Assembly: GCA_950295325.1 (NCBI GenBank)
Contig: OX485809.1
Coordinates: 25,992,144-26,056,143 of the forward strand
Origin: Polytrichum commune
Taxonomy: Eukaryota; Streptophyta; Polytrichopsida; Polytrichales; Polytrichaceae
DNA length: 64,000 nt
Reading direction: 5' to 3'
Part shown: positions 2,639-62,888 of the stretch, one piece after another
Layout of the letters: the number at the start of each line of letters is the position of its first letter
Numbering within the stretch: position 1 is the first letter of the stretch
Notes under the pieces: model-generated
Told to the model about the DNA's origin: nothing
Database searches by the model: none
The model's input: only the letters and a program-made list of their open reading frames with translations
Translations under genes and position numbers: made by a program

Positions 2639-2849
2639 CCCACGGGTGTTCACCCGTGGGACTCTCCACCTGGTGAGTGCAAAGGCCCACGGGTGTTCAC
2701 CCGTGGGCCTCTCCACCTTGTGGGTGCAAAAGCCCACGGGTGAACACCCGTGGGCACATTCAACCGGATGGGGGGAGAGGCCCACGGGTGTTCACCCGTG
2801 GGCCTCTCCACCTTGTGGGTGCAAAAGCCCACGGGTGTTCACCCGTGGG
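2639..2849. repeat. Array of five family A palindromes at 47-bp period
   Basis: Five 22-bp palindromes start at 2639, 2686, 2733, 2781 and 2828. Each has the arm CCCACGGGTG, a two-base centre (TT or AA) and the complementary arm CACCCGTGGG. Spacers are 25 bp (26 bp once), giving a period of 47 bp. The same family and period recur at 35319-35611 with unrelated spacers. Confidence 0.85.
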
Positions 2850-3278
2850 CACTTCAAATATCCACTTTCAGATAACCGCGTTCACACTAACAGAAAAATT
2901 GGGATTTATGTAATGGACACTCACCAGGGTTCTTTGGGGGGACCATGTCAAAATTCTTTCAATACGAATGTGGTTTCCTGCACAAAACAAAACACAAGAG
3001 CATTTGTTTCAAACTATGCCTACATGTGCAATACATTCATACTCTCAAACATCTCAATAGGTAAATTCTGCCCTCACATTCTTCTTGCATTCTGGTCTCA
3101 CATTTTTATGAACATAACCTCTTGTCATTCATCTTGCATTCTGATTTGAGCATTTTTCTCACATTTCAATCAACTCTTCACACCCAAGCATCACACAACT
3201 CACATGCAAATCTCTAGTATTTCTGGGTTTGAAATTCTTCAAGCAATTCAAACCCTAGTGCACCAGAAATTTGAAATG

Positions 3279-3370
3279 CAAGCAAGAGGAAGAATGCAAG
3301 CAAGAGGAAGAATGCATGCAAGAGGAGGAATGCATGCAAGAGGAAGAATGCAAGCAAGAGGAAGAATGAA
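3279..3370 (+). repeat. 18-bp minisatellite
   Basis: About five to six units of CAAGCAAGAGGAAGAATG occur in tandem with minor variation (CATGCAAGAGGAGGAATG). The short frames across it are repeat-derived and not credible as a gene. Confidence 0.7.
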
Positions 3371-3639
3371 ATTGAAAGAGAAAGCAAAAGAATGAAAGAG
3401 AGTGCAAAACATTGAAAGAGTTCAGAAACTTACAAGCTTGTGGGTTCTCAATTCTTCATGATTGGAACTTCCCTCCACTTGCTTCAAGGTCGCCTTCCTC
3501 TTCTCCACATCTCACCTCTACCACATGCTGGATTGAGCAAGAAACAACTATGCTCACCAAGAAACTATCACATATTCCAAGAAAATGCACACTGAATCTA
3601 TTCCAGGGTTTTCTTGAGAAGAGAATCAAGACAAGGAGT

Positions 3640-3815
3640 ACAATAATTGAATGAAGAGAAGAGAATGAAGAGAATGAAGAGAAGCAAAGCAAGTTCAGAA
3701 TTGTGGGAGAAGAGTTTTGCAAGAGCATTCCAGAAAAGTTGAGAGTGGTGAAGGAAAGAGAGAAAGAATTGGGAGAGGAGAATGAGAGAGAGGGAGAGAG
3801 AGGGAGAGAGAGGGT
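3640..3815 (-). other. Purine-rich block, possible CT-rich leader on the minus strand
   Basis: The + strand is almost pure A/G here (GAGAGAGGGAGAGAG units near 3780-3812), so the minus strand is CT-rich. Both ParB-like genes in the window have a CT-rich block 1-2 kb before their start codon. This one could therefore be the leader of a minus-strand gene whose A palindromes lie at 2639-2849 and whose body has been lost. This is inference from layout only. Confidence 0.3.
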
Positions 3816-4027
3816 GCGAAATGTTGCCATAATGACGAGCGGGTGGAAGTCGCATGACACATAATGCCTCATTAGTACGAAGGGACATGATGGAGGAAAT
3901 CTCGGGACGCGAAGAGATATGCGATTTGGCGGCTAAAGTACGTTTTGAGGAGGGATGGGCGGTATGATGGTATTAGGACGTAGCGATAAAAAATTATTGG
4001 TACTTTGTAAGGTTCGCCCTATTGGTA

Positions 4028-4240
4028 TGATAATTATTAGTACTTAGTAAGATATCTAAGTATTAGTGAGATAATTATTAGTACTTAGTAAGATATCTAA
4101 GTATTAGTAAGACAATTATTAGTAATTAGTAAGATAACTGCATATTAGTAAGATAATTATCAGTACTTAGTAAGATAACTCATATTAGTAAGTTCATTAT
4201 TAGTACTTATTAAGATAACTCATATTAGTATGATTGATAT
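4028..4240 (+). repeat. 41-bp AT-rich minisatellite
   Basis: The motif AGTACTTAG recurs at 4039, 4080, (AGTAATTAG) 4121, 4162 and 4202, a period of 40-41 bp. From about 4290 to 4480 it passes into a looser repeat based on TAATAGTGA. Confidence 0.7.
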
Positions 4241-4499
4241 TATTTTTATTGTTAGTAAATTGTCATATTCACTCTATTGTTAATATTAGTAATATTAGTA
4301 AAAATGATTTATAGTGATTAATAGTAATTACCAGTAATAGTAACTAATAGTAACTAATAGTGACTAGTAGTGAATAATAGTGAATGCTAGTGCTTCATAG
4401 GTCATTATAGTCATTAATAATGTTTAATAGTGATTAATAATTATGAATTACTAATGGCTGACTAGTAGTGATTTATAGTAATAATAATAATCACTTTCA

Positions 4500-6945: not shown

Positions 6946-6984
6946 AACACTATATTCGTTAAATTGAGACTTTCTCTAGTCTCA
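6946..6984 (+). repeat. Left terminal inverted repeat of element B
   Basis: The sequence starts AACACTATATTCGTTAAATT, runs on through GAGACTTT, and then folds as a subterminal hairpin (GAGACT with AGTCTC). Bases 6946-6973 are the exact reverse complement of 23729-23756. Confidence 0.75.
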
Positions 6985-7478
6985 AATTAATATATGGATC
7001 AAACAACATGAAGATGCCTGAAACTATATTGTCAACAATCTCAAATATATTAAATGTTCTAATATCCCACACCTATGATGTGCGGACATAAGCACATATG
7101 GTAGAGCACTCAACACCAATTTCATCAACAAAAACACATTGGGTAGAGCACTCCAAACAAGTTTCACCCAAAAATATATATATAATGATTTCTATTATTA
7201 GCATGCTCCATAGAATATAGACATTGCAACATACAAAGTGCATGTAATAAATGCATATTTTTTCAATGGACAATTTAGTCCCAAACTTAATAAAAAAATG
7301 AACTTCACATTTGTATTGAAATATAGTAAATGGATATTCATCCAACTCCAAAACAATATAGTATTCGTAAGTTCTACCCAAACTCTGCCCTAATTTTGAA
7401 GAGCACACATATGAGTAATATATGTTCGTAGAATTACTGTTTACACTATAATCATGCTAACACAATCCTACCAACTTC

Positions 7479-8964
7479 TCATTCAACGTGGGTTGCTTCT
7501 TCTGCGATCCGAGCAAGGTTGTCTTTTGCAAAAGTTATGTACTTTTGAGGGATGGACACTGATCCACTATGATTTTTCCGTGGTTTCCATGCTATGAATA
7601 TGGAATCTGTATCTACCCAAGATGGACCGTGCTCAGAATCCACCTTCCACCGAAAGTTAGGGTTTGTATCCCAGCCTGTATAATGCCGAATCACATCTTC
7701 ATTCCTTCCGTCGGTCGGTAGTACTCCACTTGTATTTGTCGAAAATGAGGGCTGGAAGTTACAAAATTGGGATTGGACAAAGCTCTTGCCACCCACACTG
7801 GCTTCGCATATGTCTCGTCTCCAGGACGCAAAATGAGCATATATCCTTCATGACAATCCACTGCAATGCGGAAAGATGGTGGCGGACGACTACTAGCAGG
7901 CCCCACGTAATGGTCGTCCACATCAAACTCCTCTCGAACCTCTCCATTTCCCAAAAGACTAGCCTCTGAAGCTTGTACATCGACTCGTGTTTGTGGCCAA
8001 AATCCATGCCTCAAAATATGAGGGCTATCTTGGTGGAGGTCTACCAAGGCGGCACGAACACGTGTCCAATAATGTATCCAACTCCCATAACGATGCCAAC
8101 ATGATCCGCCAACATCCGCTATCTTCAAACTCTCCCAATATTGTATGAAGCCTGATATACCTTTCAAAATATCCTCCAAATTCTTCATGGCTATTGGCTT
8201 ACAAGGGCTAGGCTCCCCATCCGGTAACATGGTCTTCCCATCCGCATCCACGCGCCACACAAGAAGACCCTCCAGCGGGCTCCAGTCTTGTGTCGTGCAC
8301 AACAACTTGTATTGCATGGCCGGGACACCATCGTCACGCATGTAGAACCGGAATTGTTGTGCCTTCGTATGCCCGATCAATCAGTGAGCTCCACTTCGAA
8401 TATAAGGTTCTATAAATGCCTTGAAGTCTGGCACCTCCTCAATCATATGGGGGATGACGGGAACGTTCTCCAAATCCATGTACGACTTCATCAATAATGG
8501 GATTGTAGGAAAATCCTCCTCCCGCAACTTCATGCTCCACCGCCCAAAAGATGCATCAATATCATCGTGCGTGTGGCCTACCAATAGGAAGGACACAAAA
8601 ACCTCCTTGAAAATGCCTTTCGCAACCAACAACGACCAATATGCAAATACATATCTGCTTTTATTGTCCTTGGCACAATTGTCCAATTGGACACGCAAAG
8701 TTGGAGGCAACTTCTTGGCAATCACGGGTTCATTGGGTGGCTCGGGCAACGAATGCAAGCATACATCTTTTCCATCCAACACCGCTTCATATAAAGGTGT
8801 TGAACCCGTGTTCTCAAATAACAATCCTGAAGAATAGGCTGGTGGTTTCTCTAAATCACGTAAAAGCCTTGCAAATGATCCTATCGTGTGGTTTGAATCC
8901 GCTGGATACAAATCAAGAGCATAATAAGCAAACTTGACATCACCGTGTCCATGTGCAATCATTC
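7479..8964 (-). pseudogene. DUF7869-type putative transposase, copy 2, last exon, broken
   Basis: This exon closely matches the copy 1 last exon and keeps LDNCAKDNKSRYVFAYW and GHTHDDIDASFGRW. It has two lesions. A CGA-to-TGA nonsense codon at 8381-8383 interrupts the SGAH-R-LIGHTKAQQF block. A 1-base deletion near 7702-7712 shifts the frame after EYYRPT, and the tail RNEDVIRHYTGWDTN continues in another frame to a stop at 7479. The exon starts after a TTGCAG acceptor and joins 9099-10542 in phase 1. It is the putative transposase of element B, now probably inactive. Confidence 0.8.
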
Positions 8965-9098
8965 CTGCAATGCCAACCCAACGTGATTAGCATCTATGTA
9001 TGAATAAACCATTATGAAGGAATCCATGTTCTCCAGTACATCACGGAATAAAAAACCACAACATTTAGGGTATGTCATGACATTGTTTCGAAGTTCAC

Positions 9099-10542
9099 CT
9101 GTAACCGATACAGGCAACTTAAAAAACCCATCCGTGGCCTTGATTCGATTTGCAAAACATGGGGAGGTTGTTTTGGCATGGTCCATTTTGTCATGGATGA
9201 CCGTAAGAACCTCCAAGGGCCTGGAGATGGACAAAGCTCTATTTGTGTAGTAATCATTACGGTGTGCCTCTTGCATGTTTACGTGCTTGAAATAGTTCAA
9301 TTGATGCGCTGCATATGACTCGGTACCCATCGTGTGTGCATCCCGGAGGCGCTTCAACTTCTCGCAATTAGAGCACCTGGCAAATTTGTCCCCTCGTCTT
9401 TTTGTAATGTATTCGCTAAAGTTTTGTTTCTTGATTGCACTTAATTTTGACAATGAAATTGGCTCCAACCCAATCTTCTCGCCAACTGCATTAACGTCCA
9501 ACAATATGTCTTTCCATTTTGTGCCTGTGGGAAGAACTTTCTCCACAACCTTTTCACCAGTTGTGAGTGTGCGTGTTTTGTGCGGCATTGCATCAGCAAG
9601 GGGGACAATGATGGTTGCTAGAGTTGCCGTTGCTTGCCTTGTTGCTTCCCTAGGTTTCTTTAAACCCACGTTCCCATGGTGACGGGACCGGCGGCCTTCC
9701 TTGGCATAAGCAGCTTGTCTATAGAAGTCCGCCTTCGACACACCGTAAATGGTGTACCATGCCTTACAACACACGTCTATGCTTTCAATGGTGATTACCT
9801 TGCGACCCGTCCCATTCACATGTATTGCCCTATGGACATCAAGTTTTTTTGTGGATCTTAGACGAAAATCTCCAAGCCACATTTCTTCACGGATGGCCTT
9901 CAATTTATCCCTTGGAAACAATTGGCAACAACAATGCACACAACAATCCTTTGTGGCAACTTCTCTTATGGACTCCTCCCCAAGCAGCCTTTGACGTTTA
10001 CAATCAGTTGCAGATGGAGAAGGACGTGCCACAGTATCGTACTTTCTTTGACCCTTGCGTGGCCGCATGTTTGATTGCATTTCCTTTTCGAGTTGCATGT
10101 GTCGTTGCTCATGTTCATGCAAGCTAACTCCATCAGTCGTGACATTCCTCAATGGCCACCTGCGGAGGGAGAACCTATGAGTGGGATCCACCTCAGAAGG
10201 AACGAGTGACTCCAATATGACAATCCCAACGTCCTCGGTGCCAAGCGGATTTTGATCAATGCAATCTTGTGGATGGGTGTTACGACAGATACCCTCCGCC
10301 ACAACAACCCCATTGTCATTAAGAAGTAACACATCCAAATTCACCCATGAAGCTCTTGAAAGCACGGCACACTCTGGAATGGGACAGTCCGGTACGGAAC
10401 GCGAAGGTATATCGAAATGCTCTTCATCTGAACTCTCATCCATAGTAGCCTCCCCGACAATGTCTAGCTCTTCCTCAGATGCAGATGGCCAAGTGGCCAT
10501 GTCTTCTCCAGACGAATACCCTCTTCCAGTATACCCATCCAT
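9099..10542 (-). pseudogene. DUF7869-type putative transposase, copy 2, first coding exon
   Basis: The exon itself is open, but its gene is broken downstream. I start at the ATG at 10542 (MDGYTGRGYSS), which follows a possible TGTGTGTAG acceptor just as the copy 4 start follows CTCTTGTAG; an in-frame ATG at about 10560 is an alternative. In order it encodes an acidic N-terminus, a VNLDVLLLNDNG block, a basic linker, a Cys-rich motif (KDCCVHCCCQLFP), a second Cys block (DVCCKAWY), the DAMPHKTRTL segment, a C-x2-C pair (CSNCEKL) and IHDKMDHAK. The Cys motifs probably bind zinc and DNA. The donor is ACAG/GTGAAC at 9098. Confidence 0.75.
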
Positions 10543-10734
10543 TTTGCCTACACACATGAACATGGAACCTTGTAAAGAATTGACAAAAGCTATAGGGTCC
10601 AATAGAAAAACACAGAAACCTTATCATAACACATGTTGTATGAATATTATATCGATGGGTTCCAAAAAGATGGAGCGCACAACAGTTTATTCAGGATCCG
10701 TCTATGCACATCCCCATTGTGTGCATGAGGGTGG

Positions 10735-11236
10735 GTTTGGGTCGAGCAACCCAAACCTCGTGACAGGATGGGCCTGCTAATCCAGGCCCAACCCCTGACA
10801 GGGGTGGGTTTGGGTCGCTCGCCCCAAACCTCACAATGGAGGTGTGTTTGGGTCGTGCGACCCAAACCTCATGACAGGATGGGCCTGGCAATCCAGGCCC
10901 AGCGCGTGATAGCGGTGGGTTTGGGTCGCTCGACCCAAACCTCATAATGGAGGTGGGTTTGGGTCGAGCGACCCAAACCTCGTGACAGGATGGGCCTGCT
11001 AATCCAGGCCCAACCCGTGACAGGGGTGGGTTTGGGTCGCTCGACCCAAACCTCACAATGGAGGTGTGTTTGGGTCGAGCGACCCAAACCTCGTTACAGG
11101 ATGGGCTTGCTAATCCAGGCCCAACCCGTGAGAGGGGGTGGGTTTGGGTCGAGCGACCCAAACCTCGTGACAGGATGGGCTTGCTAATCCAGGCCCAGCC
11201 TGTGATAGGGGTGGGTTTGGGTCGAGCGACCCAAAC
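10735..11236. repeat. Higher-order array of nine family B palindromes
   Basis: Palindromes with arms GTTTGGGTCG and CGACCCAAAC around a 2-base centre start at 10735, 10808, 10846, 10919, 10957, 11030, 11068, 11142 and 11215. Spacings alternate 73 and 38 bp (111-bp super-unit), except for the last two (74 and 73). The long spacer holds a second inverted repeat, TGGGCCTG and CAGGCCCA. The array lies just upstream of the minus-strand copy 2 gene, in the divergent spacer of element B. Confidence 0.85.
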
Positions 11237-11239
11237 ATT

Positions 11240-13100
11240 CCGCAAATTCCGCCTTAAATTGCGGTAATCTTCCATATTCAGCTACGTGGATACTAATTGG
11301 AAGAATTCAGGCCGTGCATGGCTGTTGTAATTAGCTACTCATCAACGGATGCATACACGAACCTTGCACTCCACCACTACTTGAGAGAGCTTGCAACCAT
11401 TTCAGAATGGAGAGATGAGAAAAAAGGAGCAAAGTTTGGGGGGTTTGGTACTTTATACTACCCGCCTCCGCCTTGGCCTTCCTCTTTGGATCCCTTTCCC
11501 GCCCGAACGTAAACCCTAAACCTAAGTTCAAACCTTCTGACAGAATTTCCCGCTTCTTGTTGGTAATAGAGCATCCATATTTAGCTTGCCTCTTCGTGGC
11601 GCCAACCATCAAATGACCTTGGACAACTAACCTCCTAATTCCGCTATTAAATAACTACACAAAATATGATGTGTGGATTTGATTATATGTAGTGTTGTTA
11701 CCACCAGTGTCCGAAAAGTTTTTGAAGTTATTGAGGTTAATTGCCTACCTCTTTAAAAGGGCATAGGCTATTTCCCTCATGGCATAGGTTGCATCCTACA
11801 ATATCAAATTTTTGTAAGTTGAAAACCTTTTGAGTTTTTAAGTTACCTGCCAATTGCCTTTAAAACTAATTTTTAGTAGGTTAAAATCCTTCATATCTTT
11901 TAATGTTGTAGGCTTTAAATTCAAAATTTGAGTACTAAGTGGTATCCTTGGCAGGAATTGAACCTGGCTAAGCCCTTCACCACGTTTGAAGGCCAAGGAT
12001 TAACCAACTCCTTTTTAAAGAGTTGATTATAAGTTATGAAAGGTTGCTAAAATTCAAATGAGTTTAAGGGTGAAAGTCCTCACCATCTTCTGATTCAACC
12101 TCTATGCGGTGATGGGGCTTGGGCTGTGGTATTTGTAAAGATCGACGGGGAGGGAGTCAGGGCTATTATTGATATCCGCCTATGTGCCACTCAAGAGCCC
12201 CGAGTATTAGCCTAAAGATATGTACTTAGGCCAACTAATTTCCCAATTTGAAGAAGGATTAATGGCTAAAATCCGCTCTTTTAAAAACTTTGTAGGCAAA
12301 ATTTCCTACATGTTTTTTACCACATAGGTTGATATCCTATGTTTTAAAATTGTCCATAGGCTCTTTGTCCTACACTTTCAAAATTTTATAGGCTAAGTCA
12401 CAAATTTTGTAGGCTGCATTTACACTAGCCTTAGGCTCTTGGCGGACTATGGTTACCACCCTTACATGCTCAACATTAATTTTCAATCCTATGACAGTTA
12501 GTGTTAGAAGTAAATGTGTTGCTACCTTCTACTCTCACGTATATTTCTTCTTTTCACATCCTTACTAACACTAAATTCAAACATGTCAATGCCACATATT
12601 ACTATAGCTTATATTTAATGTTTATTACTTTCATATGGTTATTGATATATTGTGTATTCACTTGTATTTAGTGTATCAAACACTAAATATCATACTTATT
12701 GTAGTTGTGTTTTGTACCTATAGTTTTTATTGATTTGGTTTGCCAAAAAAAATGTAATCAACTTTATTTGTTTTAACAAATGTTTGATGAAAAATCTAAA
12801 CATATATAGTTGTATCTATTCAATGCAAGTTGAGCAGAACATGTCCTTAAATACATGTTGGTGTGTTCTAGTGTCACTACACTAAATAAGATATTTAGAG
12901 ATTTATACACTAAATATGAACACATCTACGACGTAACATAACATACATAACAAACATAACATGAAATGTAACCAACGTTCATGTTCATGAATTAGACTAT
13001 TGTGATATCTATATACATTTGTTTTTAGAACCACAAGCGACTTGGCCCCCTCATTTGACCTATGCGCCATTCATTTATGGCTTCGAGTGCAACAAGACAC
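11240..13100. other. AT-rich spacer of element B without genes
   Basis: I see no coding region. A CCGCC-rich patch at 11460-11515 could belong to the leader of the copy 2 gene. A tRNA-like fold at 11944-12000 is the only structured feature found. Confidence 0.4.
11944..12000 (-). other. tRNA-like three-way junction lacking a D-arm
   Basis: On the minus strand an 8-bp stem (ATCCTTGG with CCAAGGAT) closes two hairpins. One is a 5-bp stem CCTTC/GAAGG. The other is a 4-bp stem CAGG/CCTG around the 7-base loop TTCAATT, which looks like a tRNA T-arm. The object is too short for a tRNA and has no D-arm. It may be a decayed tRNA-derived repeat or a mitochondrial-like fragment. Confidence 0.35.
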
Positions 13101-13107
13101 ATTTATA

Positions 13108-13155
13108 TACCCTAAACCCTAAACCCTACACCCTACACCCTACACCCTACACCCT
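13108..13155 (+). repeat. Telomere-like run CCCTAAA/CCCTACA
   Basis: Two CCCTAAA units are followed by several CCCTACA units. It is a short interstitial run, not a chromosome end. Confidence 0.7.
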
Positions 13156-13177
13156 CGTAGTTGTTCAGGGTTGCTTC

Positions 13178-13735
13178 CCACGGGTAGGTCACTTAGTGCA
13201 TTTTAAAAACGACGTGCGGCATAATATAGAGAGGATTGAAATCATTTGAAATAAAAATTATAAAGGAATTCCAAATAATGAAGGGGCCATTAAATGTAGA
13301 CAATCCCATTATAAGTAAGTTAGATGGACATAAAATGTGGGCCATTATTTTTTTGTAAAATTAATATAGGGGCTGAAGATAAGGTTCCTAGAAGGTATGT
13401 TTAGTATAATGTTTGCTATGGTCTCCTATGTGTTTTCTTCATAACTTTGTTTGCAATGATATTATTGTTTGCACCCTTCTTTGTTTCCATGGTTTCCCTT
13501 AACAGGAAGTAGATTAGCTTTTATTACTTAAAAGGAATATAGAGTACAAAAAATTGCAGTGACTTGGACAATATAAGTAATGGAAGGGTGCAAACAAATG
13601 GGCCATTTTTGAAATTCAAGTAATTATAGGGAGGCTTTAATTCAACCCTTGAAGGTAAATAGCCCCAAAACAAAAAACCCTGAGCCGCACGTGGTGCACA
13701 AAAATGCCTTAGAGTGACCTACCCGTGTGGCTTCC
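13178..13735. mobile_element. Foldback (MITE-like) element of about 560 bp
   Basis: The left end CTTCCCACGGGTAGGTCACT and the right end, read in reverse as GGAAGCCACACGGGTAGGTC, are imperfect inverted repeats that continue for about 45 bp to GACGTGCGGC and CACGTGCGGC. There is no coding region. A target duplication was not identified. Confidence 0.45.
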
Positions 13736-13739
13736 ATAT

Positions 13740-50890: not shown

Positions 50891-52413
50891 TCATTCACCA
50901 TCTTCATCTTCTGTTTCATTTCCATTCTCGACATTGTTTTCTGCAGCAGCAATACGTGCCAAGTTGTCTTTGGCAAAATCTATATGTTTTTGGGGGATGG
51001 TCATTGTTTCAGTTTTGGAACCTTTGCGTGGTTTCCAAGCACAAAGTATGGTATCCGTGTTTATCCATATTGGTTCGTATGATGAGTCCATTGTCCATTT
51101 GAAACCTTTTTTCGTATCCCACCCTAAATATGTGCGGAGCACATTTTGATCTTTGGTGCTTGGACAGCAATATTCCACCTCAATTTGACGAAAATTTGGG
51201 CTAGTTGGAACAAAATTTGGTGATGACAATGCTTTCACCAACCAAATCGGTTTAGGATGTTCCTCATCTCCAGGACGTACGAGGACCATATAACCTTCGT
51301 AGCAATCAATAGCCACACGAAATGATGGAGCCGGGCGATTACGAGCAGGGCCAACATAATGGTCGTCCGCCGCGAACTCTTCACGAACGTCCTCATTGTT
51401 GAAGAACATGGCCTCAGATTCCACGATTGTCACTCGACTTAGTGGCCAAAAACCTTGTGTCAAACATGATGGTCTATCGTCTTCGGGTGCTAGCAACGCT
51501 GAGCGGATGCGATCCCAATACGCAATCAATGGTTCGTGGGTATCCCGAACACGTCTTGTGATGTCTTCCTCGCACAAATCTTTCCAGTACTCGATGAATC
51601 CAGATATACCTTTGATGATTTCTGGTCCATTCCTCATGGGGTTGGGTTTGCAGGGCTTCGGCTCCCCATCAGGTAGCATACATTTGCCATCTTCGTTTTG
51701 GCGCCATACGAGTATCCCTTCCTCTGGGCCCCAATTCGGGGAGGTACACAAAACTTTGAATTGCATGGCCGGCAGACCATCATCACGCATATAGAATCGG
51801 AATTGTTGAGCCTTGGTATGGCCCACTAAGCGGTCACCTCCCTTAAGAATGAATGGTTTGATAAACGATTTAAAATCGGGCACTTCTTCAATCAAATGCG
51901 GGATGACTGGCACATTATCCAAATCCATGTACGATTTCATGAGAAGAGGAATTGTGGGAAAATCCTCCTCGAGCAACTTCATACTCCAACGTCCAAATGA
52001 AGCGTCAATGTCATCGTGCGTGTGGCCAACCATCAAAAAAGACACAAACACTTCTTTGAAAATGCCCTTGGCTACGAGCAATGACCAAAAACAAAATACG
52101 TATCGACATTTGTTGTCCTTGGCACAATTGTCAAGTTGCACGTGTAGAGTTGGAGGCAAAGGTTTAGCAAGAACGGGTTGTTCAGGCGGTTCTTGCAGTG
52201 AAGATAGGCAAACCTCCTTCCCCTCTAGCACAGCCTCATAAATCGGTGTTGTTCCACATCCAACAAAAAGAGCACGAGAGGATGATGTGGGCGGACTCTC
52301 AAGATCTCGTAGAAGTTTTGCAAAAGACCCTACGGTATGATTGGCGTCGCCAGGATAGAAATCCAAGCCATAATGTGCATATTTCACGTCCACATGACCA
52401 TGTGCGATCATAC
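50891..52413 (-). CDS. DUF7869-type putative transposase, copy 4, last exon
   Basis: The exon begins after AAATGCAG (acceptor for the phase-1 join before MIAHGHVDVKYAHYG) and is open to TAA/TGA-type termination at 50891. It contains VQLDNCAKDNKCRYVFCFW (Asp at about residue 563 of the spliced protein), FLMVGHTHDDIDASFGRW (about 590-607) and the conserved C-terminal region ending in an acidic tail (NGNETEDEDGE). Joined with 52562-53966 it gives 975 residues without a lesion. It is the best candidate for an active transposase in the window. Confidence 0.85.
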
Positions 52414-52486
52414 CTGCATTTAGCCACACAAATCGTATATATGAATGAAATTCAAAAATTTCCCCAAGCAAGCAAAAAAATGTACA

Positions 52487-52508
52487 CTTACGGACGTACA
52501 TCCGTAAA
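52487..52508. repeat. Degenerate C palindrome in the copy 4 intron
   Basis: CTTACGGACG-TA-CATCCGTAAA lies within the intron 52414-52561. It keeps most of both arms. Confidence 0.65.
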
Positions 52509-52561
52509 TCTTAACAATGAGTATGTGGGCGCGCAAAAAATAAATGTGAAAACCAACAAAC

Positions 52562-53966
52562 CTGTGACAGATATTGGAAGCTTGAAATATCCATCTGTAG
52601 CCTTTATTTTCCGCGCATAACAAGGGCACGCCGTCTTTGCATGGTCCATTTTGTCATGAATGATTGTCAAAACCTCATTCGGCCTCATTATCGATAATGC
52701 GCGATTCTTGTAGTAGTCTTGACGGTGTGCCTCCTGGTTGTTGACATGCTCAATGTATTTCAGTTGATGTCGGTTGTGGGACTCAGTCCCAATGGGATGT
52801 GCATCTCGAAGGCCTTTATATTTCTCACAAGCAGAACACCTGGCAAACTTATCCCCAGGTCTCTTCGTAATGTATTCTGCGAATTGTTGATTCTTGATCA
52901 CACTCAATTTTGACAACGAAATCGACCCACATCCAGCCTTTTCGCCAACTTCATTAACATCCATAAGTATGTTCTTCCATTTTGTCCCTGTAGGCAAAAC
53001 CATCTGAACAACCTTTTCCCCCGACGGCAGAGTTCGCGTCTTGTGTGGCATCGCATCTGCCAATGGCATAATGATGGTTGATAGTGTTGCAGCCGCTTGG
53101 AGTGTTGCCTCCCTAGGCTTCTTTGTGCCAGAGTTGCCATGGAACCGAGAACGGCGTCCTTGCATCGAGTAGTTCCGGAACCTATAAAAATCTGCCTTTG
53201 AAACTGCATGTATAATGTACCATGACTTGCAACATATCTCGACATTTTCCAAGGTCACAACCTTACGACCTTCGACATCAAGATGCATGTTGCGATGGAC
53301 TTCAAGTTTCTTTGCAGATCGCATACGAAAGTCCGCGAGCCACATCTCTTGTCTCAAAGATTTGATCTTGTCACGGGGAAATAGTTGGCAACATCTTTTT
53401 GCACAACAATCATTTGTTGCTACGGACCTAATAGATGCATCTCCCAATGTTTGATCTCGACGACGTTGCGTGGGTTCACGAGGCAAACGAACGGAATCAT
53501 ATTTACGCCGACCCATTCTAGGGCGCATTGTGGAGAACAATGCCGATTGCATTTGATCAAAACGGCGGGAATGATTCCACAAGCTGACACCATCATGAAG
53601 AACACTGCGCAACGGCCATCGACGAAGAGAGAATCTCCAACCAGAAGGCACTTCCAACGGATGTAAGGAATTCAGAATGCACACTCCCACATCTTCTTCC
53701 CCAAGGGGATTTGCATCAATACAATCCGTAGGATTCGAGTTCCGACAAACACCATCGGCCACGGGGACACCACATCCATTGAGGAGGACGACATCAAGAT
53801 CAATCCACTGCTCCCGGGAATAACCCTCACATGGTGGGAGGAATTCATCCTCTACATTGGCGACACCAATTGTAGTTTCTTGTTCCACGACAACTTCAAA
53901 CTCGCTAGCATAGCTTGACGCTTCCGACGAAAAATCAACCCCACTATCACTGACGTTGGAATCCAT
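52562..53966 (-). CDS. DUF7869-type putative transposase, copy 4, first coding exon
   Basis: The ATG at 53966 lies in the context GGCCATGG just after a CTCTCTTGTAG acceptor, so the 5' leader is spliced. The N-terminal 60 residues are Ser/Glu-rich (MDSNVSDSGVDFSSEASS). DLDVVLLNGCG, a basic linker, NDCCAKRCCQLFP, VEICCKSWY, DAMPHKTRTL, CSACEKY and IIHDKMDHAK (Asp at residues 438 and 441) follow. The donor is CACAG/GTTTGT (phase 1). The paired Cys motifs suggest a zinc-binding DNA-recognition region. The product is predicted to act on the ends or palindromes of element C. Confidence 0.85.
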
Positions 53967-54110
53967 GGCCACTACAAGAGAGCCAAATGAAGAGTATGTC
54001 AAAATATCCCATTCAATAAATGTCATGGATAGCCCTAACGCTTATTATTGTCAATGAAACACAATGTGAACACTAGTGGATTTCATGGCTTGAAAACAAA
54101 ACTAGCATTG

Positions 54111-54945
54111 GTATACGAACGTGCGTCCGTATACCTCCATGTAATAACATCAGCAGCGCAAGCACACGCGCATACGGATACATTGATGTGTTCATAGGAG
54201 CGGAAAGGAGGAGGCAAAAAAAACATCACTGGTTTATGGACGCGCATCCGTAAATCGGCTCGTACACAGAGTTCAGTTAAACCCTCAACCAAAACAAAGG
54301 TATACGGACGCGCGTCCATAAACATCCGTATGACAAACATCAATGTAGTCCTAGACAGAGGTTCAAGGAAGCAAGAGGTCCTCCAAACACGGCCATGTAT
54401 ACACAGGCCTGACGACTCATGAAATTTGAAGAGGTTTGAACACGCCCATACGCGCTTCCTAAAATGTTTAATCACTGTCAAATTATTATAGTATGACACA
54501 TAGGGTGATGTAGGCTAAGGGATGCGAGCTCCCAACCCTTCATGACCGTACAGTCTCACTGCAGTCTCAGTCTACATGGCACATTATGGTAACAAAGATT
54601 TCCAGGTTTACGGACGCGCGTCCGTAAACCTCTGTGGACCTCATTCCTAGCATAAAGACAGTGATCGATGGAATACACCTCTGTGGACATCATTACTAGC
54701 CTAAATACAATGTCCAACGCGCCAAGGGGTTTACGGACGCGCGTCCGTAAACTTCCATGGTAATATATTGTCGTTGTGGTGCTCTACACGACAGGTGGTG
54801 TAGGTGACCTACAGAACTATAGCACCAAAGGTATGCAGGTTTACGGACGCGCGTCCGTAAACCTCAACGTACATGAGTATTGGCTCAAACAAATAAAGGT
54901 TCAATGAACCAATATGTTTAAGGTTTACGGACGCGCGTCCGTAAC
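54111..54945. repeat. Cluster of C palindromes upstream of copy 4
   Basis: Sites start at about 54111, 54232, 54300, 54606, 54729, 54839 and 54923. The consensus arms are GTTTACGGACG and CGTCCGTAAAC around a central CG, TG or CA. The site at 54111 has TATAC in place of TTTAC in both arms, so symmetry is kept. Spacing is irregular (roughly 70-300 bp). Confidence 0.85.
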
Positions 54946-54949
54946 TCTC

Positions 54950-57900
54950 CGTGATTTGCGGCGTGAAAATAGGATCATTGCACCAGAAAGGATAACTGTC
55001 CGAAATTTTAAAAAAATCAGCACACTACAAGGAGAGTGCAACCCAAATACAAATTGTGTACCCTAATGGGCTCAGGACTTCGGGTTTAGGGTATAATAGG
55101 TCCATTGCAATAGGATCTTTACCTGCACAAAATCTGTAGCAGGAGCACACTACAAGAGCGCAACCCACAGCTGAGATGCAAAAAGAGTCCCGACGGTGGG
55201 GGGTGTCCCCTTAAGTACTGATCGCTTTACCTTGGATCCGTTTTCCAACATAGGATACCAGCCACCAACTATGTCCTATAAATACAAACCTAGCATTACT
55301 ACATTCCGTGTGCCAGCCTTACAATGGAATGTGTATTCATGTGGACTACATGCATAGACCATGAGTCCACATAATGACAAAGAAAAAGGCATCTATGTAT
55401 TTGTGGTATACAACAAAGTAAATTGGCTAATATTATATGAGCAATAAACATTGTTGAGGGGTGGTTTATAATATTGGAGTACCTAATATGAAGAGTACAT
55501 TTTAAAAAACGTAGACAACAAAATTAAATTAGCAACAACAATAGTACATGGAGTATAAAAATACATGTAATCAAAATTAAATTAGCAACTACTTTATTGT
55601 TTTGCATACAATGTAATGGTATTGACCATAATATCATGCTATCTCCTCTCATCTTGCATTTAATATTATAATTACATTGGCCACCACCTAACCATCCAAC
55701 ATTTTTAATTTACCCACCTATACACACCTATACATAATTGTATTTATATCTGATACAGAAACTTTGATTACCGTAAGGCCATGATAGTAGCACATCTATT
55801 GTCCTAGGTAACATGGGTTGCATTAAATTCAATATTATCAATTTTCTCTCTAAACCTTAGGGGCCCCTTCCGTACATCAACATTTACTTCAAAAAAACTA
55901 ATTATACTAGCCTTCTTCATGTACTATACGTGAGGAAAAACATATTTTAGTACCCCATGTACATTACCTACATTAATTAATACTCAAACAATACCAATTG
56001 TTGCTCCAAGTAACATTCTTACCCTCAACCCTAAACCCTATAACCACCCAAACCTAAACAAACATATGGACATAGAGATGCAAGCATGGTTAACTGAACA
56101 ACTCTTGATACATGTCAAGGCTTAAGTGGAAAGTAATTCAAAACAAGCAAGCAAACAATTATACCAATTGTTGTTCTACGTAATACTATTAACCCATAAA
56201 ATATAATGGACAGAAAGGGAGGGTAGGGTATCTAAATAGTAATAAGGCAACCAATATTAAGTCGGTGACACAAGGGGGATACTCTTAACCCTAAACCCTA
56301 AACCTTAAACCGTATAAACGACTCCCGACTCATGTCAAGGCTTAAAATTCTCTAAAACAAAACCATCAAGATTTCAAAAGTCAAGCAAATTTATGTTTAC
56401 AAATTATTCTTGAAGACATGGTAAGTGGTGAAAAAGTAGGTGACATAGAACAAAGATTTATCAAATTGTGAATGGCAATCCGATATGTGGTCTTAATTTG
56501 GCTAAGGAAAAAGGTACATGGGTTGCGTAACCTTACCTTTCATTTTTTTAATCTTTGTTTGCCTGGGTAAAATCCACCCCTTAGAGGCAAGTACAAGATT
56601 TAGCCGAGACTTGTTATTCTTTGATGGGATACAATATGAAAACAATTAAGCCTTCAAAACATTTAAGATCATCAAAGTTATGTTCTAAGTCATATTTATC
56701 CATTTGCTTTAAACCTTTACTTTTGAAGATAGGTTTTGAACATCATATATTGGTATTCTATAATCGAATACTTAACACAACCATACATGTCGTGGAAACA
56801 AAACTCCAATATAAACAACAATTTGCTACTACTTATAGGCGATAATACAAGCTCATGCCTAGGTTTGGAAGGATTGCATGAATCCTGAAGGTTGTTTAAT
56901 GGACAAGAGGGATGTAAATTCAACACCTACCCATTCCTTTTGTTCTAATACAAGCTTAGACCTATGTGCAGAGGGATTGAATTAACCCCTAACGTTGTTT
57001 AAGATATTATAAGCATTTGATCTTAACCCATATTATCTCGATGTTTGGTTTTGTTAATTGTGTTTCAAACATGCTTAATTTAAATATCATTAATAATGAT
57101 ATTCACATCAAAGCATCCCAAGTGTCCAACTTCAATAAAGTCCCCAAGTTGCTATTGATAGTATAATTTAGGTTGAAAATCCCCTTTCACAAATTATTGC
57201 GATAATTGAGGGATTCATAAGGGTGTAGGGGTTTAGGGTTAATTGAATTTTTGGCCAATGGGTATATTATTGTCCCAATTGCATTTGAATCCCACCTTTG
57301 TGGTAAAAAATTACAAAATGCTTTATTTTTTTAATTATTGATGTTATTTAATTGATGCCAATGACATAATATACAATGAATAGTTAATATAGCATTCCAT
57401 AATTCTAAATATTAAGCAATACTACTTATAATATTTAGTGTACTAGTAATTTAAAGCCCGCTTACCTTCATATTACAACAAGTCCACAAAGAAAATCTTA
57501 CACTTGAGTTACTCAACCTCAACCCATACTTCAAAATTATGTTTACTATTGGGCCTAGATGGTTATTATAATTTGAGCATTGAGATTCCTTTATTTTTGG
57601 TCAGCAATTGTTTTTGGTATTCGTTTTTGGACTCACCACATACAATCCATCCTCTATAAATGTTATGCTCTGGAATATAATTTTCCTTACATTTATTGTG
57701 AGTTAACATTGTAACAACTATAAAGGGAGCTTTTTGAATGCTTAACAAATTTGATTCATTACAATTATGGAGGGAGAGTTTTGCAAAATTATAAATTATA
57801 AAATATGTGTATCAATCACAATATAACCCATATTAATAATTTGATCACAAAAGTCAAATTTGGTGGCTTTTGCCACTTTGAAAGGTTGTGACTCAATGTA

Positions 57901-58240
57901 ATGGATGTCATCTCACAATATTGGATGTAGTTCGTAGGTTAACATTTATAAGTGGCAAATTAACAAAGAGGGGAATAAATTATTCTTAACATGTAACAAA
58001 GTTTACATTCTAGTTAGCAATATGAGAGGAGTACGAATTTGTTAACAAATACAATTATGAGTTAACATGTGGAAGTGTAACATTTATCGAGGGTGGACTC
58101 TAGCAATCACAAAATAGACCAATAGACATATGCCACGTAAGGGTTACATGTGGCCTTTGGGCGCGGGTTGATGGGACGTCTAGGTAGGGAGTGGATGTGA
58201 CGTTTAGGGTTTAGGGTTTCGATACACTCCCTTGCTCTTT
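54950..58240. other. AT-rich spacer of element C
   Basis: No credible gene is present. Short telomere-like runs occur at about 56026-56041, 56285-56310 and 58203-58222. The rest is AT-rich with short frames lacking domain signatures. Confidence 0.4.
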
Positions 58241-58244
58241 GCTC

Positions 58245-58555
58245 CTTTCGCTCCTTTTTGCTCATTTTGCTCCTTTCGCTTACTCCCTTTCGCTCCTTTC
58301 CTCCTCGCCCACCATTGTTCCTTTCCTCCTCGCCCTTGCTCCTCGCCCTTGCTGCTCCTCCTTCTCCTCCTTCTCCCTTGCTGCTGCTGCTCCTTCTCCT
58401 CCTTCTCCCTTGCTACTATTACTGGTCCTCCTTCTCCCTTGCTGGTCCTCCTTCTCCTCCTCCTCCTCCTTCTTGTTGTTTCTCCTCTTTCTCCTCCTCC
58501 TTGCTCTTCCTTTGTTGTTTCTCCTCCTCCTTGCTCTTAGTTCCATAAGAGCGCC
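58245..58555 (+). promoter_or_regulatory. CT-rich block, probable leader of the element C ParB-like gene
   Basis: The block consists almost entirely of CTCCTT/CTCCTCC units and lies 1.5-1.8 kb before the start codon at 60047. It matches in composition and placement the CT-rich block before the element B gene. Leu/Ser/Pro-rich frames across it are composition artefacts. Confidence 0.4.
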
Positions 58556-59373
58556 AGGAGCTCCAGGCAGGTGCTTTTTTCTTTCCCTCTTTGCTAGATG
58601 TGCTGTTCCAGGTGCTAATTAGGTGATTTGAGTTTATGTATTGATGCACAAGAGGAGGATTGTGAGTATTGTGTGAGCATGCAATGTTTTGTTGCACTCA
58701 CAATTGCAAGTAACATCAGAAATTGAGTAGTTTTTTGCTTGCAGTCTCATTAGGACATTAATGGAGTAGTTTCAGTTGTTGCAAGGGTTTTAGGGTTGGA
58801 GTATTTCAGTTGTTTCAGAGTGCTCCTCCTTTCAGTTTGTAATTGTCTTCACTTCATTTGAATTCACTTTTTCCAAGTTCTATGAAATCATATGTTTTGC
58901 TTTGTTCACTTCTATCTGATGTCAATGTTCAATCCAGTGCAATCTTTGTAGTAGGGTTTTTTTGGTGGGTTTGATGCATTTTAGGAGCAACACACAGTTT
59001 AGTTGAATCTTGAATGTGCACATTGCATTACCAGAGGTTTCTAACTTCAATTTTATTGTTAATTTGCAGTCTGTCCTAGCTGCTGCAGCTGTGGTTGAGC
59101 AGCAAACATTGTACAAAGGTAAGTGTTTCTAGTACATTGCAAATTGAAATGGAACATTCTTCTTAGTTTGGAGTATAGAATCTGCTATTGCAATGCAACA
59201 CCTGATATATTCTAATTTGGAGTGCAAATCCATGTTGCATTCCAAGTAAAGATGAACATTGCACATGAATGGAATGCAACAAAAAACCTGTTCCGAAAAT
59301 TTCGGAGCAATATCCAGAAACACAGTAATTGTGCAAAGTAATTAAATTCAGAGTAATTAAAAAATGGCCTGAA

Positions 59374-59992
59374 GTTTACGGACGCGCGTCCGTAAACTTC
59401 AGGGAACCCTGGGAATATGCATCGCACTATGTGTGAACAGTTTACGGACGCACGTCCGTAAATTGTAGATATATTTAAAAAGAACTATTTAAAAACATGA
59501 ATGATAAGTTTACGGACGTGCGTCCGTAAACTTGAAATATCTAAGTACACTAAATGTGGTACATGATACATGTGCAGAGTTTACGGACGCGCGTCCGTAA
59601 ACTAGGCAGCAAAAGCTATGAAAATCTCAGAGTATAATACATGTCATGGGTTTTCAAAATAAGTTCTACAAAATATACAAGTTCTACACAACAAAAATGA
59701 ACTTATTTTCCAAGAATTTACGGACGCACGTCCGTAAATTAGGGCTACATAATAATAAAAAACATATTATATTAATGGAATATAGAAATAGAAACTTTTG
59801 GATGATATATGTGCAGAGTTTACGGACGCGCGTCCGTAAACTCTGCACATATATCATGTATGTGATTTCTTTTTATAAGATATCTCAAGTTTACGGACAT
59901 GCGTCCGTAAATTTGACATGTACTATAACATAATACATAACCACATTATATAGGAAAGGGTACGCAAAGGTTTACGACCACGCGTTCGTAAG
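59374..59992. repeat. Leader cluster of eight C palindromes
   Basis: Sites start at 59374, 59440, 59508, 59579, 59716, 59818, 59889 and 59970. Steps are mostly near 68 bp (66, 68, 71, 137, 102, 71, 81). Central dinucleotides vary (CG, CA, TG). The last site is degenerate. They occupy the probable leader intron just before the start codon, as the B sites do in element B. Confidence 0.85.
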
Positions 59993-60046
59993 ATAGGCTC
60001 TGCATCCCCAGACCTTAATACTGACTTGTATATTTTACATTTGCAG

Positions 60047-61333
60047 ATGGAATCTACAAAAAGACCCGCTATTGATTTATTCGCAGAGCTTGTCCATCCT
60101 CCGCTTCCAAAAGCCATCAAAGACATAAGCCACAACGACCATTACAAGCCACGCGAAGACATTGTAGATAACTGGACAGTTATTGTAGAAAAAGACGAAA
60201 ATGATATATTTGTCCTTAGATTTGCCTATCAAATAAAAGCAGATATACATGAATCCGAGAAGTGGATGAAGGTAAAAAACTGGACAGTAGAGTGTGCGGT
60301 AGCCCAAGGTGATTATGTTGTCATTGACCTTGAAAAGAAAAATGATAGGATCACATTCATTTTGCACGAGTTGTACCATCCGTTTAACAAAAATGAATGT
60401 GAAAATGCCAGCCCAGATACGTCTTGCTTCAATTTACAGAATGAATTCCAAGACTATGCATGCAATGCACCCTGGACGGGTAAACGGCTTGGACGTCTCT
60501 TGAACAATGTGACAAGAGTAAATGGGGCATTACTGGAAGCCAAGAAAGGAAAGGCGAAAAAACCAGTTCCTGAACGACCTAAACGTGTTCCTAAACACGT
60601 GCCAGAAGCCTCGAGACCCTCACAGAGTGGGGCATCAAGAGGGAGCAAGCAGACTAGTAAACGCTCCCACTCACAGATGGAGTCGTCAGGGCTAACAGAG
60701 GGTCCAGATGTGAGCTCTACTCTTACTGTCGCACCACTCCTGAAGAAAGGACAACGCCCTGACGCCGAACTTTCCACAAAGATTTTCCAAGAGTTCGACG
60801 AGAAGACAAAGGGCTGCTGGCCACTTGGAAGATATTTTACGTTTGATGTGGATGTCTACAAATGCCACAAGGGCACGGAGAGTATGAATACTCGTGCCAA
60901 AGAAGAGACCGGGGTGTGGTGGCAAATGAATAACATTATGAACAACCCCAAATTTGATAGGCAAACCATATGTGTGACACCAAAGGATCGTGTGGTTGAA
61001 GTCACAGCGCAAAACTGGCCAATTCTCAAAGATGGAGAGTTCTACATAGTCGACGGCCAACATAGTGTGATGGCTGCAAAAGCTCTCCTAGAGGACGATG
61101 AGTGGAAGAGCCCTTTGAAAGAGACAATCCGATACTGGAAGGCATTCGTCGTCCATTCCAAAGACTCGAACCAGCTCATCGCAATATCTGCCTTCATGAA
61201 CCAAGGGAATAAAGTGAGGCAGTTCGAGGCTTCATGGGCTGCCAACATCGTGGCTGGAAGGACCTTGTGGGTAGAGCACGATTGTCCCCCAAAAGAGAGG
61301 GAGAATGCAGTCATCAAAAATCCCAAATGGCAG
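60047..61333 (+). CDS. ParB/DGQHR-like domain protein of element C, exon 1
   Basis: The ATG at 60047 follows the acceptor TTACATTTGCAG and opens 429 codons in phase 0 to TGGCAG/GTATGT. The layout equals the element B gene: N-terminal conserved region (about 20-115, YKPREDIVDNWTVIVEKD), Ser/Pro/Lys linker (about 160-235) and ParB/DndB-like region (about 240-429). The last has YIVDGQHSVMAAKAL (Asp 336) close to the D-G-Q-H-R signature, KAFVVHSKDSNQL and AFMNQGNK. The D-G-Q-H part is better kept than in element B. In bacteria, ParB-type and DndB-type domains act in DNA partition or in DNA-modification and restriction systems. Binding to the C palindromes is a hypothesis. Confidence 0.8.
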
Positions 61334-61349
61334 GTATGTCTCAGTATAA

Positions 61350-61373
61350 TTTTACGAACGCGCGTCCGTAAAC
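61350..61373. repeat. C palindrome in intron 1
   Basis: TTTTACGAACG-CG-CGTCCGTAAAC lies in the 117-bp intron 61334-61450. The same intron in element B holds four B palindromes. Confidence 0.8.
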
Positions 61374-61450
61374 TTCTTCCCATCTCCTTCCAATTCTTTA
61401 ATTCCTTTGATTTAAGCTCTGCTGATTTCTTGTAATACATGGCATTGCAG

Positions 61451-62770
61451 ACATTCAGCAATGCCATCTTGACAAAGTTCTCCAGCATTGACTTGAAGAC
61501 AAGCGGCATGAAGACGGTGCAGGAGCTGAAGGGGGAACTTAAGCTCATCACCGCCACAGAAGAGACATGGGCAATTTGGTTGCGCCTATTCGATGCCCAC
61601 AACAACGGAGACCTTATCAATCCGGATGCAGAAAACACGTACAAGAGCGACTCGAAGGTTAAGGTGCCACCTATCCTGAGAGAGTTCTTTCGTCCCCTCC
61701 AAGGATTGCTCGACTCCGAATTGTACAGAGCGGCACAACACATCCTATTGGAGACTCCGAGGAGGACACTGCCCTACCCCAAAATCTTCCTGAAGCGGCC
61801 GAAGCACATGAAGCCTTCCACGTACCACATTAAGGAATGGTGCGAATACAGGAAGAAGAAGACCATGGCTATAAGGGAAATTAGCAAGCTGTTGCCCTCC
61901 CACAACCTCACTGATACAGATGGTGAAATAATGTGGGAAAACTGGAGGACGCTCAAGGAGGAATATCACATCAATGGGGTCTCCATGCGATCATTGATAA
62001 GAGGCGCATCTCCCTTCCTAGCCCAAAGATCTAGGAGGAACGAGAAGAAAGGGTCTATCGACGAAAGAGAGACGGCGTTGTACGTCCATTTCCTTGACAG
62101 AAAAAAGAAAGCAAAATTCGAAGGGGTCGCAAGATTCTGCACTGTTACAACGGCCTTGAAGTTTGGCACATGGGACACACATGCTTCAAGAGCCTCTGTG
62201 AGAGATGACCCCCGGGGTTGTCCGTTCGCACTATTTGATTTCCGTGCATTTCCCGGATCTTGGAGACAAAACGCTAGCGGGACCGCTTTCTATGACAACT
62301 TCTTCAAGGCCTTCAAGAGCTATCGGTCGCCTGCCCTCTTCGAGCCAAATGTGTGGCTCTGGATCGTAGATCAAGAGAGGTCCGCATCGGTCGTCCAGCT
62401 TTACACATCGACGATGAACCTCCAATACGACCTTTACCACAACACATACATCCCCGCGAAGACGGAAGGGATCAGTGTTATTGAAGAGGCAAGAGGGGCG
62501 AAGCAGGTCGGGGCTTTGGCACTTTATTTCTTGACACACAAGTCTTCACCAAGTGGGCGGATGCCTATCAAAGCGCAGAACGTGTTCAAGAAAGTATACT
62601 CGTTGCCACCACCACACCCCAAGGAGCTTGTCGCGGAGACTATGTATGCAATCTACCCGGCGTACGAGCTCCGAATGGATTTTTATATTGGAGTCTTGAA
62701 GGCTGTGACTGTGATGAGTGAAACAGTTTACAACGTCTTCGGAGGCACCAAATTTGTTTATGCGGCATTG
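61451..62770 (+). CDS. Methyltransferase-like region of the element C gene, exon 2
   Basis: The exon has 440 open codons in phase 0 between CATTGCAG and GCATTG/GTAAGT. It aligns with the stop-containing exon at 17900-19231. In order it holds a helical region (FSSIDLKTSGMKTVQ), PYPKIFLKRPKH, MWENWRTLKEEYHI, FALFDFRAFPGS (about residue 686 of the protein), FEPNVWLWIVDQER (about 727) and TVYNVFGGTKFVYAAL (about 853). FGGTK plus AALMLG from the next exon resembles the F-x-G-x-G SAM motif of N4/N6 amino-methyltransferases, with the D-P-P-Y position occupied by D-F-R-A-F-P. If the homology is right, the catalytic motif is lost, so a binding role is more likely. Confidence 0.65.
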
Positions 62771-62815
62771 GTAAGTACTTGTATGCACCTCTTTCCATGG
62801 TTCATCTGAATTGAA

Positions 62816-62888
62816 ATTTACGGCCGCGCGTCCGTAACATTGGCCACACAAATATGCAATGTAAATTTACGGCCGCGCGTCCGTAAAT
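62816..62888. repeat. Two C palindromes in intron 2
   Basis: Sites at about 62816-62839 and 62865-62888 both read TTTACGGCCG-CG-CGTCCGTAA, sharing the same A-to-C change in the left arm, so they probably arose by local duplication or conversion. Intron 2 is 62771-62967. Confidence 0.8.

Follow-up and report, generated by a model that had tools for sequence, protein, structure and literature searches.

What purpose could be served by three different families of short palindromes that occur in a single stretch of the Polytrichum commune genome, each in its own transposon? The stretch in question, hereafter the window, comprises 64,000 nucleotides of contig OX485809.1 (assembly GCA_950295325.1, positions 25,992,144 to 26,056,143) and carries element B, element C, a fragment of a B-type element (e1), and what appears to be an older, interrupted element A. 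All of these have a gene for a DUF7869 protein, the presumed transposase, and B and C also have a second, accessory gene that we call ParB-like after a motif in its product. The palindromes (families A, B, and C, named after their elements) are 22 bp long, with two 10-bp arms around a 2-bp center. We favor the hypothesis, which we consider probable though far from certain, that they are element-specific sites for a dimeric protein encoded by the element itself, most likely the ParB-like product, which would keep the element's genes expressed and aid its transposition.

At a threshold of at most three mismatches over the 20 arm positions, the window contains 12 A sites (9 of them perfect copies), 27 B sites (18 perfect), and 18 C sites (9 perfect). 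Every one of the 36 perfect palindromes of this 10-2-10 geometry in the window belongs to family A, B, or C, and none appeared in any of three first-order Markov shuffles. All 27 B sites fall within element B (6946-23756), all 18 C sites within element C (50343-64000), and all 12 A sites outside both, in two blocks of five (2639-2849) and seven (35319-49289) sites that we infer to belong likewise to one element, split by nested insertions. An earlier, first-pass annotation of this DNA had described three many-copy families of 22-bp palindromes with 10-bp arms, each confined to one element; both statements are borne out, the latter for 57 of 57 sites as counted in the window. Loosening the threshold to 4-5 mismatches adds eight weaker matches, seven of them in or next to their own element type, that is, one A match (50151), five B matches (2228, in e1, and 22835, 23249, 23374, and 23573), and two C matches (59971 and 21933), the last of which, inside element B, is the sole match off its element.

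The center dinucleotide, previously described as variable, does vary but not freely, with each family preferring its own: AA/TT in 11 of 12 A sites, AG/CT in 18 of 27 B sites, and CG in 12 of 18 C sites, counts that include copies in tandem arrays, which are not independent. Ten base pairs is not a sharp limit of the arm, because the base just outside it often pairs as well (16 times among the 27 B sites and 12 times among the 18 C sites, as read from pairing strings). The 12 A sites fall into 4 flank groups, the 27 B sites into 12, and the 18 C sites into 15; that is, the B and C dyads occur in many unrelated flanks and, therefore, the dyad itself has been kept, not only a longer repeat around it. 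A variant of the A palindrome at about 35262 has no central dinucleotide, its two half-sites directly abutting. That the families are unrelated in sequence, as had also been proposed, is too strong a statement: read outward, the half-sites (CACCCGTGGG for A, CGACCCAAAC for B, and CGTCCGTAAA for C) all have cytosine at positions 1, 4, and 5, those of B and C are identical at 6 of 10 positions and different at 4, and the summed pairwise identity is 14 (p = 0.016 with letters permuted within half-sites; p = 0.029 for three identical columns under the same permutation). This likeness lends modest support to a single ancestral site that may since have diverged.

The sites lie almost exclusively in non-coding positions. 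That is, 55 of the 57 are outside coding blocks, which cover 45% of element B and 47% of element C, the only exceptions being those at 20584 and 20653 in the last open reading frame (ORF) of B. In B as in C, palindromes occur in intron 1 as well as intron 2 of the ParB-like gene (GT..AG borders), each with the sequence of its own family, and the DUF7869 intron holds one palindrome each in A and C (none in the B intron examined). B and C have a common layout, consisting of a minus-strand DUF7869 gene, palindromes, a spacer of about 4.4 kb, palindromes again, and a plus-strand ParB-like gene with three exons (Table 1).

Half-sites of the element's own family also occur near the element ends. With all palindromes masked and up to two mismatches allowed, there are 4 C half-sites in the left subterminal stretch of C, 2 and 4 B half-sites in the left and right stretches of B, 3 A half-sites at the right of A, and 3 B half-sites at the right of e1. 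The total of 16 compares with 1.06 expected and with no more than 6 in any of 300 shuffles, and half-sites of other families in the same five stretches number 1 against 1.51 expected. Individually, the own-family count was reached in 0 (C-left), 6 (B-left), 2 (B-right), 0 (A-right), and 0 (e1-right) of the 300 shuffles, and the half-site counts were unchanged when the A-right, B-right, and e1-right stretches were later narrowed. Element B thus has own-family half-sites at both of its ends, and A, C, and e1 each have them at the single end that is visible. The ends themselves are CACTA..TAGTG inverted termini: an exact 24-bp repeat is found at both ends of B (CACTATATTCGTTAAATTGAGACT) and at the right end of e1 (AGTCTCAATTTAACGAATATAGTG, 2415-2438), the left end of C has it with two mismatches, and AA precedes all four. 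TACT flanks element B (6942-6945 and 23757-23760), which is a 4-bp duplication if the terminus is AACACTA and no duplication if it is CACTA, a question assessable for element B only.

Table 1. Positions of the elements, genes, palindromes, and half-sites in the window.
Feature	Position	Strand	Remarks
e1, 3' part of a B-type element	1..2440	+	DUF7869 gene; right terminus 2415-2440
Five A palindromes	2639..2849	-	47-48 bp tandem array; presumed accessory-gene side of A
Element B	6946..23756		16.8 kb; terminal inverted repeats AACACTATATTCGTTAAATTGAGACT; candidate 4-bp duplication TACT
B DUF7869 gene	7694..10542	-	coding blocks 9097-10542 and 7694-8980; in-frame stop 8381-8383
Nine B palindromes	10735..11236	-	111-bp tandem array, upstream of B DUF7869 gene
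Single B palindrome	13990		spacer between the two B genes
Seven B palindromes	15644..16273	+	upstream of B ParB-like gene
B ParB-like gene	16298..20962	+	coding blocks 16298-17629, 18029-19246, 19454-20962
Four B palindromes	17650..17791	+	intron 1 of B ParB-like gene, GT..AG borders
Three B palindromes	19261..19354	+	intron 2 of B ParB-like gene
Three B palindromes	20584..20997	+	20584 and 20653 within last ParB-like ORF; 20976 just past its stop
Degenerate B sites (4-5 mismatches) and half-sites	22835..23594		right subterminal part of B
Six A palindromes	35319..36126	+	presumed first intron / 5' region of A DUF7869 gene (intron read by eye)
A DUF7869 gene	36171..50118	+	split by Ty3/gypsy-type element 37810-48805
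A palindrome	49268		A DUF7869 intron, about 49201-49338
Three A half-sites	50151..50273		beside presumed right end of A
Element C	50343..64000		left terminus AACACTATATTCGTTAATTGGAGACT; right end beyond window
C half-sites CATCCGTAAA (three) and CATCCGTAAT (one)	50611..50751	+	left subterminal tandem repeats of C
C DUF7869 gene	50943..53939	-	coding blocks 52560-53939 and 50943-52417
C palindrome	52487		intron of C DUF7869 gene
Seven C palindromes	54112..54945	-	upstream of C DUF7869 gene
Seven C palindromes	59375..59911	+	upstream of C ParB-like gene
C ParB-like gene	60047..64000	+	blocks 60047-61336, about 61450-62779, 62968 to window end, which cuts the last exon
C palindrome	61351..61372	+	intron 1 of C ParB-like gene
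Two C palindromes	62817..62887	+	intron 2 of C ParB-like gene

Under the hypothesis that we favor, each transposon would encode its own homodimeric DNA-binding protein, for which the three-exon, divergent ParB-like gene is the likeliest source. The dimer would dock on the dyads in both promoter/5' regions, within introns, and where the last ORF ends, as well as on the half-sites in the subterminal regions. Once bound, it would sustain expression of the element's genes, most plausibly by shutting out host silencing in the manner of VANC in VANDAL elements, and would assist in bringing the ends together for transposition, like TNPA in CACTA elements. As lineages split, protein and sites would change together, giving each element a private palindrome with a shared dimer geometry. 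Binding by a dimeric, element-specific protein had already been suggested in the first-pass annotation, and the dyads in unrelated flanks, the intron positions shared by sites of different sequence, and the own-family subterminal half-sites support it. Its further suggestion, that protein and site co-evolve, is plausible because the ParB-like gene has changed at a much higher rate than the DUF7869 gene, on a comparison of two elements only: between B and C, the DUF7869 blocks are 65% and 68% identical and the first two ParB-like blocks 31% and 37%, with the third block alignable only in fragments.

The name of the accessory gene derives from a motif in its block 1 (IVDGQHSVMAAKAL in C). In C, this block gave weak, sub-threshold matches on the motif (DGEFYIVDGQHSVMAAKAL) to a PHROG ParB-like partition protein (E 0.016), DUF1015 (E 0.099), and DUF6551 (E 0.12), and the corresponding part of the B gene gave no such profile matches. 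In place of DGQHR, element C has DGQHS and element B DSQHS, with S for R in both. A tblastn search in phages at E 4 returned four records, all Staphylococcus phages, over 20 residues, and eight relatives of that phage protein, all eight of which match DUF6551, were aligned as a comparison family. Against these DUF6551/ParB-like proteins, hhalign gave the accessory protein a probability of 95% over 26 columns with an E-value of 3e-8, which is flattered because the phage family was found through this very motif; none of 40 column-shuffled controls came near the score (56.5 vs. at most 17.6). The whole of block 1 scored 94% over 23 columns, block 2 0.3%, and the motif part only 1.5% against phage ParB_N-methyltransferase fusions. 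The phage alignment, in turn, matched sulfiredoxin (E 0.023) and Noc (E 0.056) weakly in the PDB. Judged by these alignments, a ParB/sulfiredoxin-type motif in the accessory protein is supported, and a full ParB is not.

Block 2 of the accessory gene (C 61439-62806, B 18344-19246) contains NVFGGTK, around which it resembles N6/N4 methyltransferases and which aligns with FGG of the phage methyltransferase in the right order, but the match is not significant (hhalign 0.4-0.5%; 1 of 40 shuffles as good) and, by eye, the block reads DFR where DPPY is expected, in both B and C. A ParB-methyltransferase fusion is a lead only, and Hades gp69 was discarded as a methyltransferase control, being a C5 methylase and of the wrong family. 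Part of C block 2 had no match in phages by tblastn. Fusions of ParB_N and N6_N4_Mtase do occur in gut phages (L011 2746-4011, L012 2758-4011), and tblastn with one of them matched 717 phage records, 285 of these over at least 80% of its length. Scans of IMG/VR with the B DUF7869 block and the B ParB-like block returned no matches, and a scan with the ParB-like block 1 alignment matched 162 stretches, none of them a relative by tblastn; the terminal repeat and the three palindromes had no exact match in IMG/VR, a viral collection that says little about the host. Searches of PDB sequences with proteins of the window gave nothing relevant.

There are several alternatives to a ParB-like binder. 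It is conceivable, if rather unlikely, that the DUF7869 protein binds the palindromes, for transposition or autoregulation, and that the ParB-like gene does something else; DUF7869 is indeed the one gene that accompanies all three families and e1, and half-sites do occur in the subterminal regions. However, this protein is 65-68% identical between B and C even though their half-sites differ at 4 of 10 positions, the ParB-like gene being far more diverged, and it is in internal positions such as promoters and introns, rather than at the termini, that the perfect sites lie. We consider it improbable that a host regulator or the silencing machinery (e.g., a transcription factor or an insulator protein) binds the palindromes as captured promoter or insulator elements: the three sequences are each private to one element in the window, with own-family half-sites near the ends. 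In its favor are the promoter and intron positions and the cytosines that the half-sites have in common at positions 1, 4, and 5.

Two further explanations dispense with a DNA-binding protein altogether. Very improbably, the palindromes could act as RNA hairpins in transcripts (processing, double-stranded RNA for silencing, or termination), as all of them are perfect or near-perfect inverted repeats and most would lie inside likely transcripts. Among 570 arm-pair cells, however, 27 are off consensus: pairing is lost in 18, becomes G-U in the presumed transcript in 8 (somewhat above the 17% chance for a random single change), and is kept by a compensatory change in 1, and there was no Rfam match at the gathering score. 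The hairpin explanation was rejected on these arm-pair counts, and a DNA site is favored because primary sequence has been kept rather than pairing. Least probable of all is passive amplification of satellite-like or target-site repeats with no binder: the tandem arrays, with units of 47, 111, 40, and 36 bp, speak for it, whereas the many single sites in unrelated flanks, the same intron positions in B and C, and the half-sites near the ends speak against it. Finally, the comparison with recombinase crossover sites made in the first-pass annotation is not supported, given up to 27 sites per element and a family-preferred center; the only recombinase-type Pfam hit, in a scan covering 20 ORFs of the 64 with at least 100 amino acids, is the integrase of the unrelated retroelement in A.

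It is important to note that several observations weigh against the hypothesis that we favor. Many sites are tandem-array copies (a B array of 9, an A array of 5), and family A has only four flank groups. The subterminal stretches were picked after half-sites had first been seen there, homology links e1-right to B-left, and tandem repeats are present in C-left and B-right; because of such homology and repeats, the number of independent events behind the 16 half-sites is smaller than 16. When the window is counted in full, half-sites at two mismatches are near expectation (29, 57, and 33 vs. 37, 52, and 36 for A, B, and C). Concerning the binder, the DUF7869 proteins of A and B are only 34-51% identical by block, which keeps DUF7869 among the candidates, and the accessory gene is present in only two elements of the window, making the protein-site correlation a comparison of two. 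Further, the phage comparison family was chosen by matching the motif, no DNA-binding domain was found above cut-off in the ParB-like gene (Pfam, NCBIfam, PHROGs), and AlphaFold2, with two sequences per alignment, gave no usable fold for ParB-like block 1 and its C-terminal part (mean pLDDT 33.1 and 34.1).

Element B is decayed, with in-frame stops in block 2 of both its ParB-like and its DUF7869 gene; in the ParB-like gene, the in-frame stop is at 18341-18343, and two more TAG stops, read by eye, lie between the intron 1 acceptor and 18029. Its palindromes are mostly still perfect (18 of 27), perhaps because the decay is recent or because the sites are used in trans. Pfam PF25273 matches the B DUF7869 ORF at 8381-8962 (E 3.2e-38), and tblastn links this gene to those of A, C, and e1; the last is 89.6% identical, on the opposite strand, to the left part of B (6946-9382). 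An NLI-interacting-factor/FCP1-like phosphatase domain (21507-22256; Pfam NIF, E 1.8e-15), with no PDB sequence match at 1e-3, is encoded farther along in element B, past its ParB-like gene; a CTD-phosphatase-like cargo gene of this kind could bear on the element's transcription.

As for element A, 2441-6945 and 23757-50342 would represent one older element, with B inserted within it, e1 at its left, and C at its right. Pyrimidine-rich stretches precede the ParB-side palindromes of B (14751-15025) and C (58201-58600) on the plus strand, and mirror-image stretches on the minus strand lie near the first A block (3251-3425 and 3626-3900), which suggests that A is one element interrupted by B. Four of the six pyrimidine-rich stretches of the window sit at these places, the other two within element B ORFs; they reach 89% pyrimidine and could be a promoter-like or regulatory feature. 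Neither a terminus nor an accessory gene of A was seen in the window. The Ty3/gypsy-type insertion in A is probably young because its 1.9-kb terminal repeats (37810-39702 and 46913-48805) are 99.7% identical. The CpG observed/expected ratio is 0.74-0.77 in e1, B, and C vs. 0.47-0.51 in 2441-6945 and 23757-35100, which suggests that the former are younger or less methylated. A dispersed repeat, perhaps a short non-autonomous element, occurs in both orientations at four places (24684-24867, 25763-25929, 32144-32390, and 34195-34465; 77-86% identical). AAACCCT-type repeats and spliced genes are also present in the window and, together with the Ty3/gypsy-type insertion, give it a eukaryotic, plant-like character; Rfam (gathering score) and tRNA scans of it were empty.

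No paper on DUF7869 was found in the literature and, among the matches listed for ParB with transposons, plants, algae, or bryophytes, only the Ectocarpus paper (PMC12477816) was relevant by its title and the start of its abstract; among the same matches there was no report of these palindromes, and PMC8226300 does not mention ParB. In the brown-algal transposon Sola1-1_Ec32, an accessory protein combines a ParB-like part with a methyltransferase, similar proteins occur in green and red algae, and ParB-like accessory proteins of large algal transposons were proposed to bind and modify their own element (PMC12477816). The elements described here are alike in that, within a large transposon, the gene with the ParB-like motif faces the other way from the presumed transposase gene, but differ in that the methyltransferase match is not significant (0.4-0.5%, DFR instead of DPPY). 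Cis sites are not mentioned in the passages of PMC12477816 consulted and, if our hypothesis is true, the palindromes provide candidate cis sites for the accessory proteins reported in algal transposons.

Like bacterial ParB-parS systems, B and C combine a ParB/Srx-type motif and palindromic sites in one element, and the motif is the part of the earlier parS comparison that stands. Unlike in those systems, no helix-turn-helix was recognized (Pfam, NCBIfam, PHROGs), the motif reads DGQHS/DSQHS, and the Pfam scan of 20 ORFs returned no ParA. We know of no partition use of ParB in a eukaryotic transposon. A self-recognition system, in which a ParB-type protein would load at private parS-like palindromes, spread along or coat the element, and protect it from silencing or mark it for transposition, while the site code switches rapidly between lineages, is an unlikely though conceivable elaboration.

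There is also a resemblance to CACTA/EnSpm elements with TNPA or TNP1, in which subterminal motifs differ between elements, as do the TNPA-like proteins (PMC2613891): B and C have CACTA termini, subterminal motifs that differ between elements, and a second element-encoded protein, and a repeated motif in both subterminal regions, a TNPA-type feature, is present in B as its own-family half-sites. In contrast to CACTA/EnSpm elements, the strong sites here are internal, with only half-sites or degenerate sites in subterminal position, and the candidate duplication is 4 bp instead of 3 bp, the wider CMCT group having target-site duplications of 2-5 bp (PMC12730594). According to PMC12730594, a transposase domain of the EnSpm type carries C(2)C and H(3-4)H motifs. 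In place of a CACTA transposase domain, the Pfam scan of these ORFs showed only DUF7869, and no C(2)C is seen by eye between QLDNC and GHTHDD; the termini are therefore called CACTA-like here, and no superfamily is assigned.

Finally, VANDAL elements offer a possible functional parallel. VANC21 motifs occur upstream of VANA21, in introns of VANB21 and VANC21, and in tandem arrays, VANC6 has other motifs than VANC21 (PMC5735166), and different motifs for different VANC proteins are also reported in PMC10398659. The palindromes in the window are likewise short, element-specific, partly tandem, and located upstream of the presumed transposase gene and in introns of the element's own genes. They differ from VANC motifs in being 22-bp dyads rather than 9-base direct motifs, and the elements differ from the Mutator-like VANDALs in their presumed transposase (DUF7869), their CACTA-like termini, and an accessory gene with a ParB/Srx-type motif. 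That is, by analogy, the system described here may work like VANC without being a member of that family, and it would then parallel VANC, independently, in elements whose terminus and presumed transposase are different. With three related elements and three site codes at one locus, it becomes directly testable whether a selfish DNA-binding protein and its site co-evolve, as does the question of how a site code can change without loss of function.

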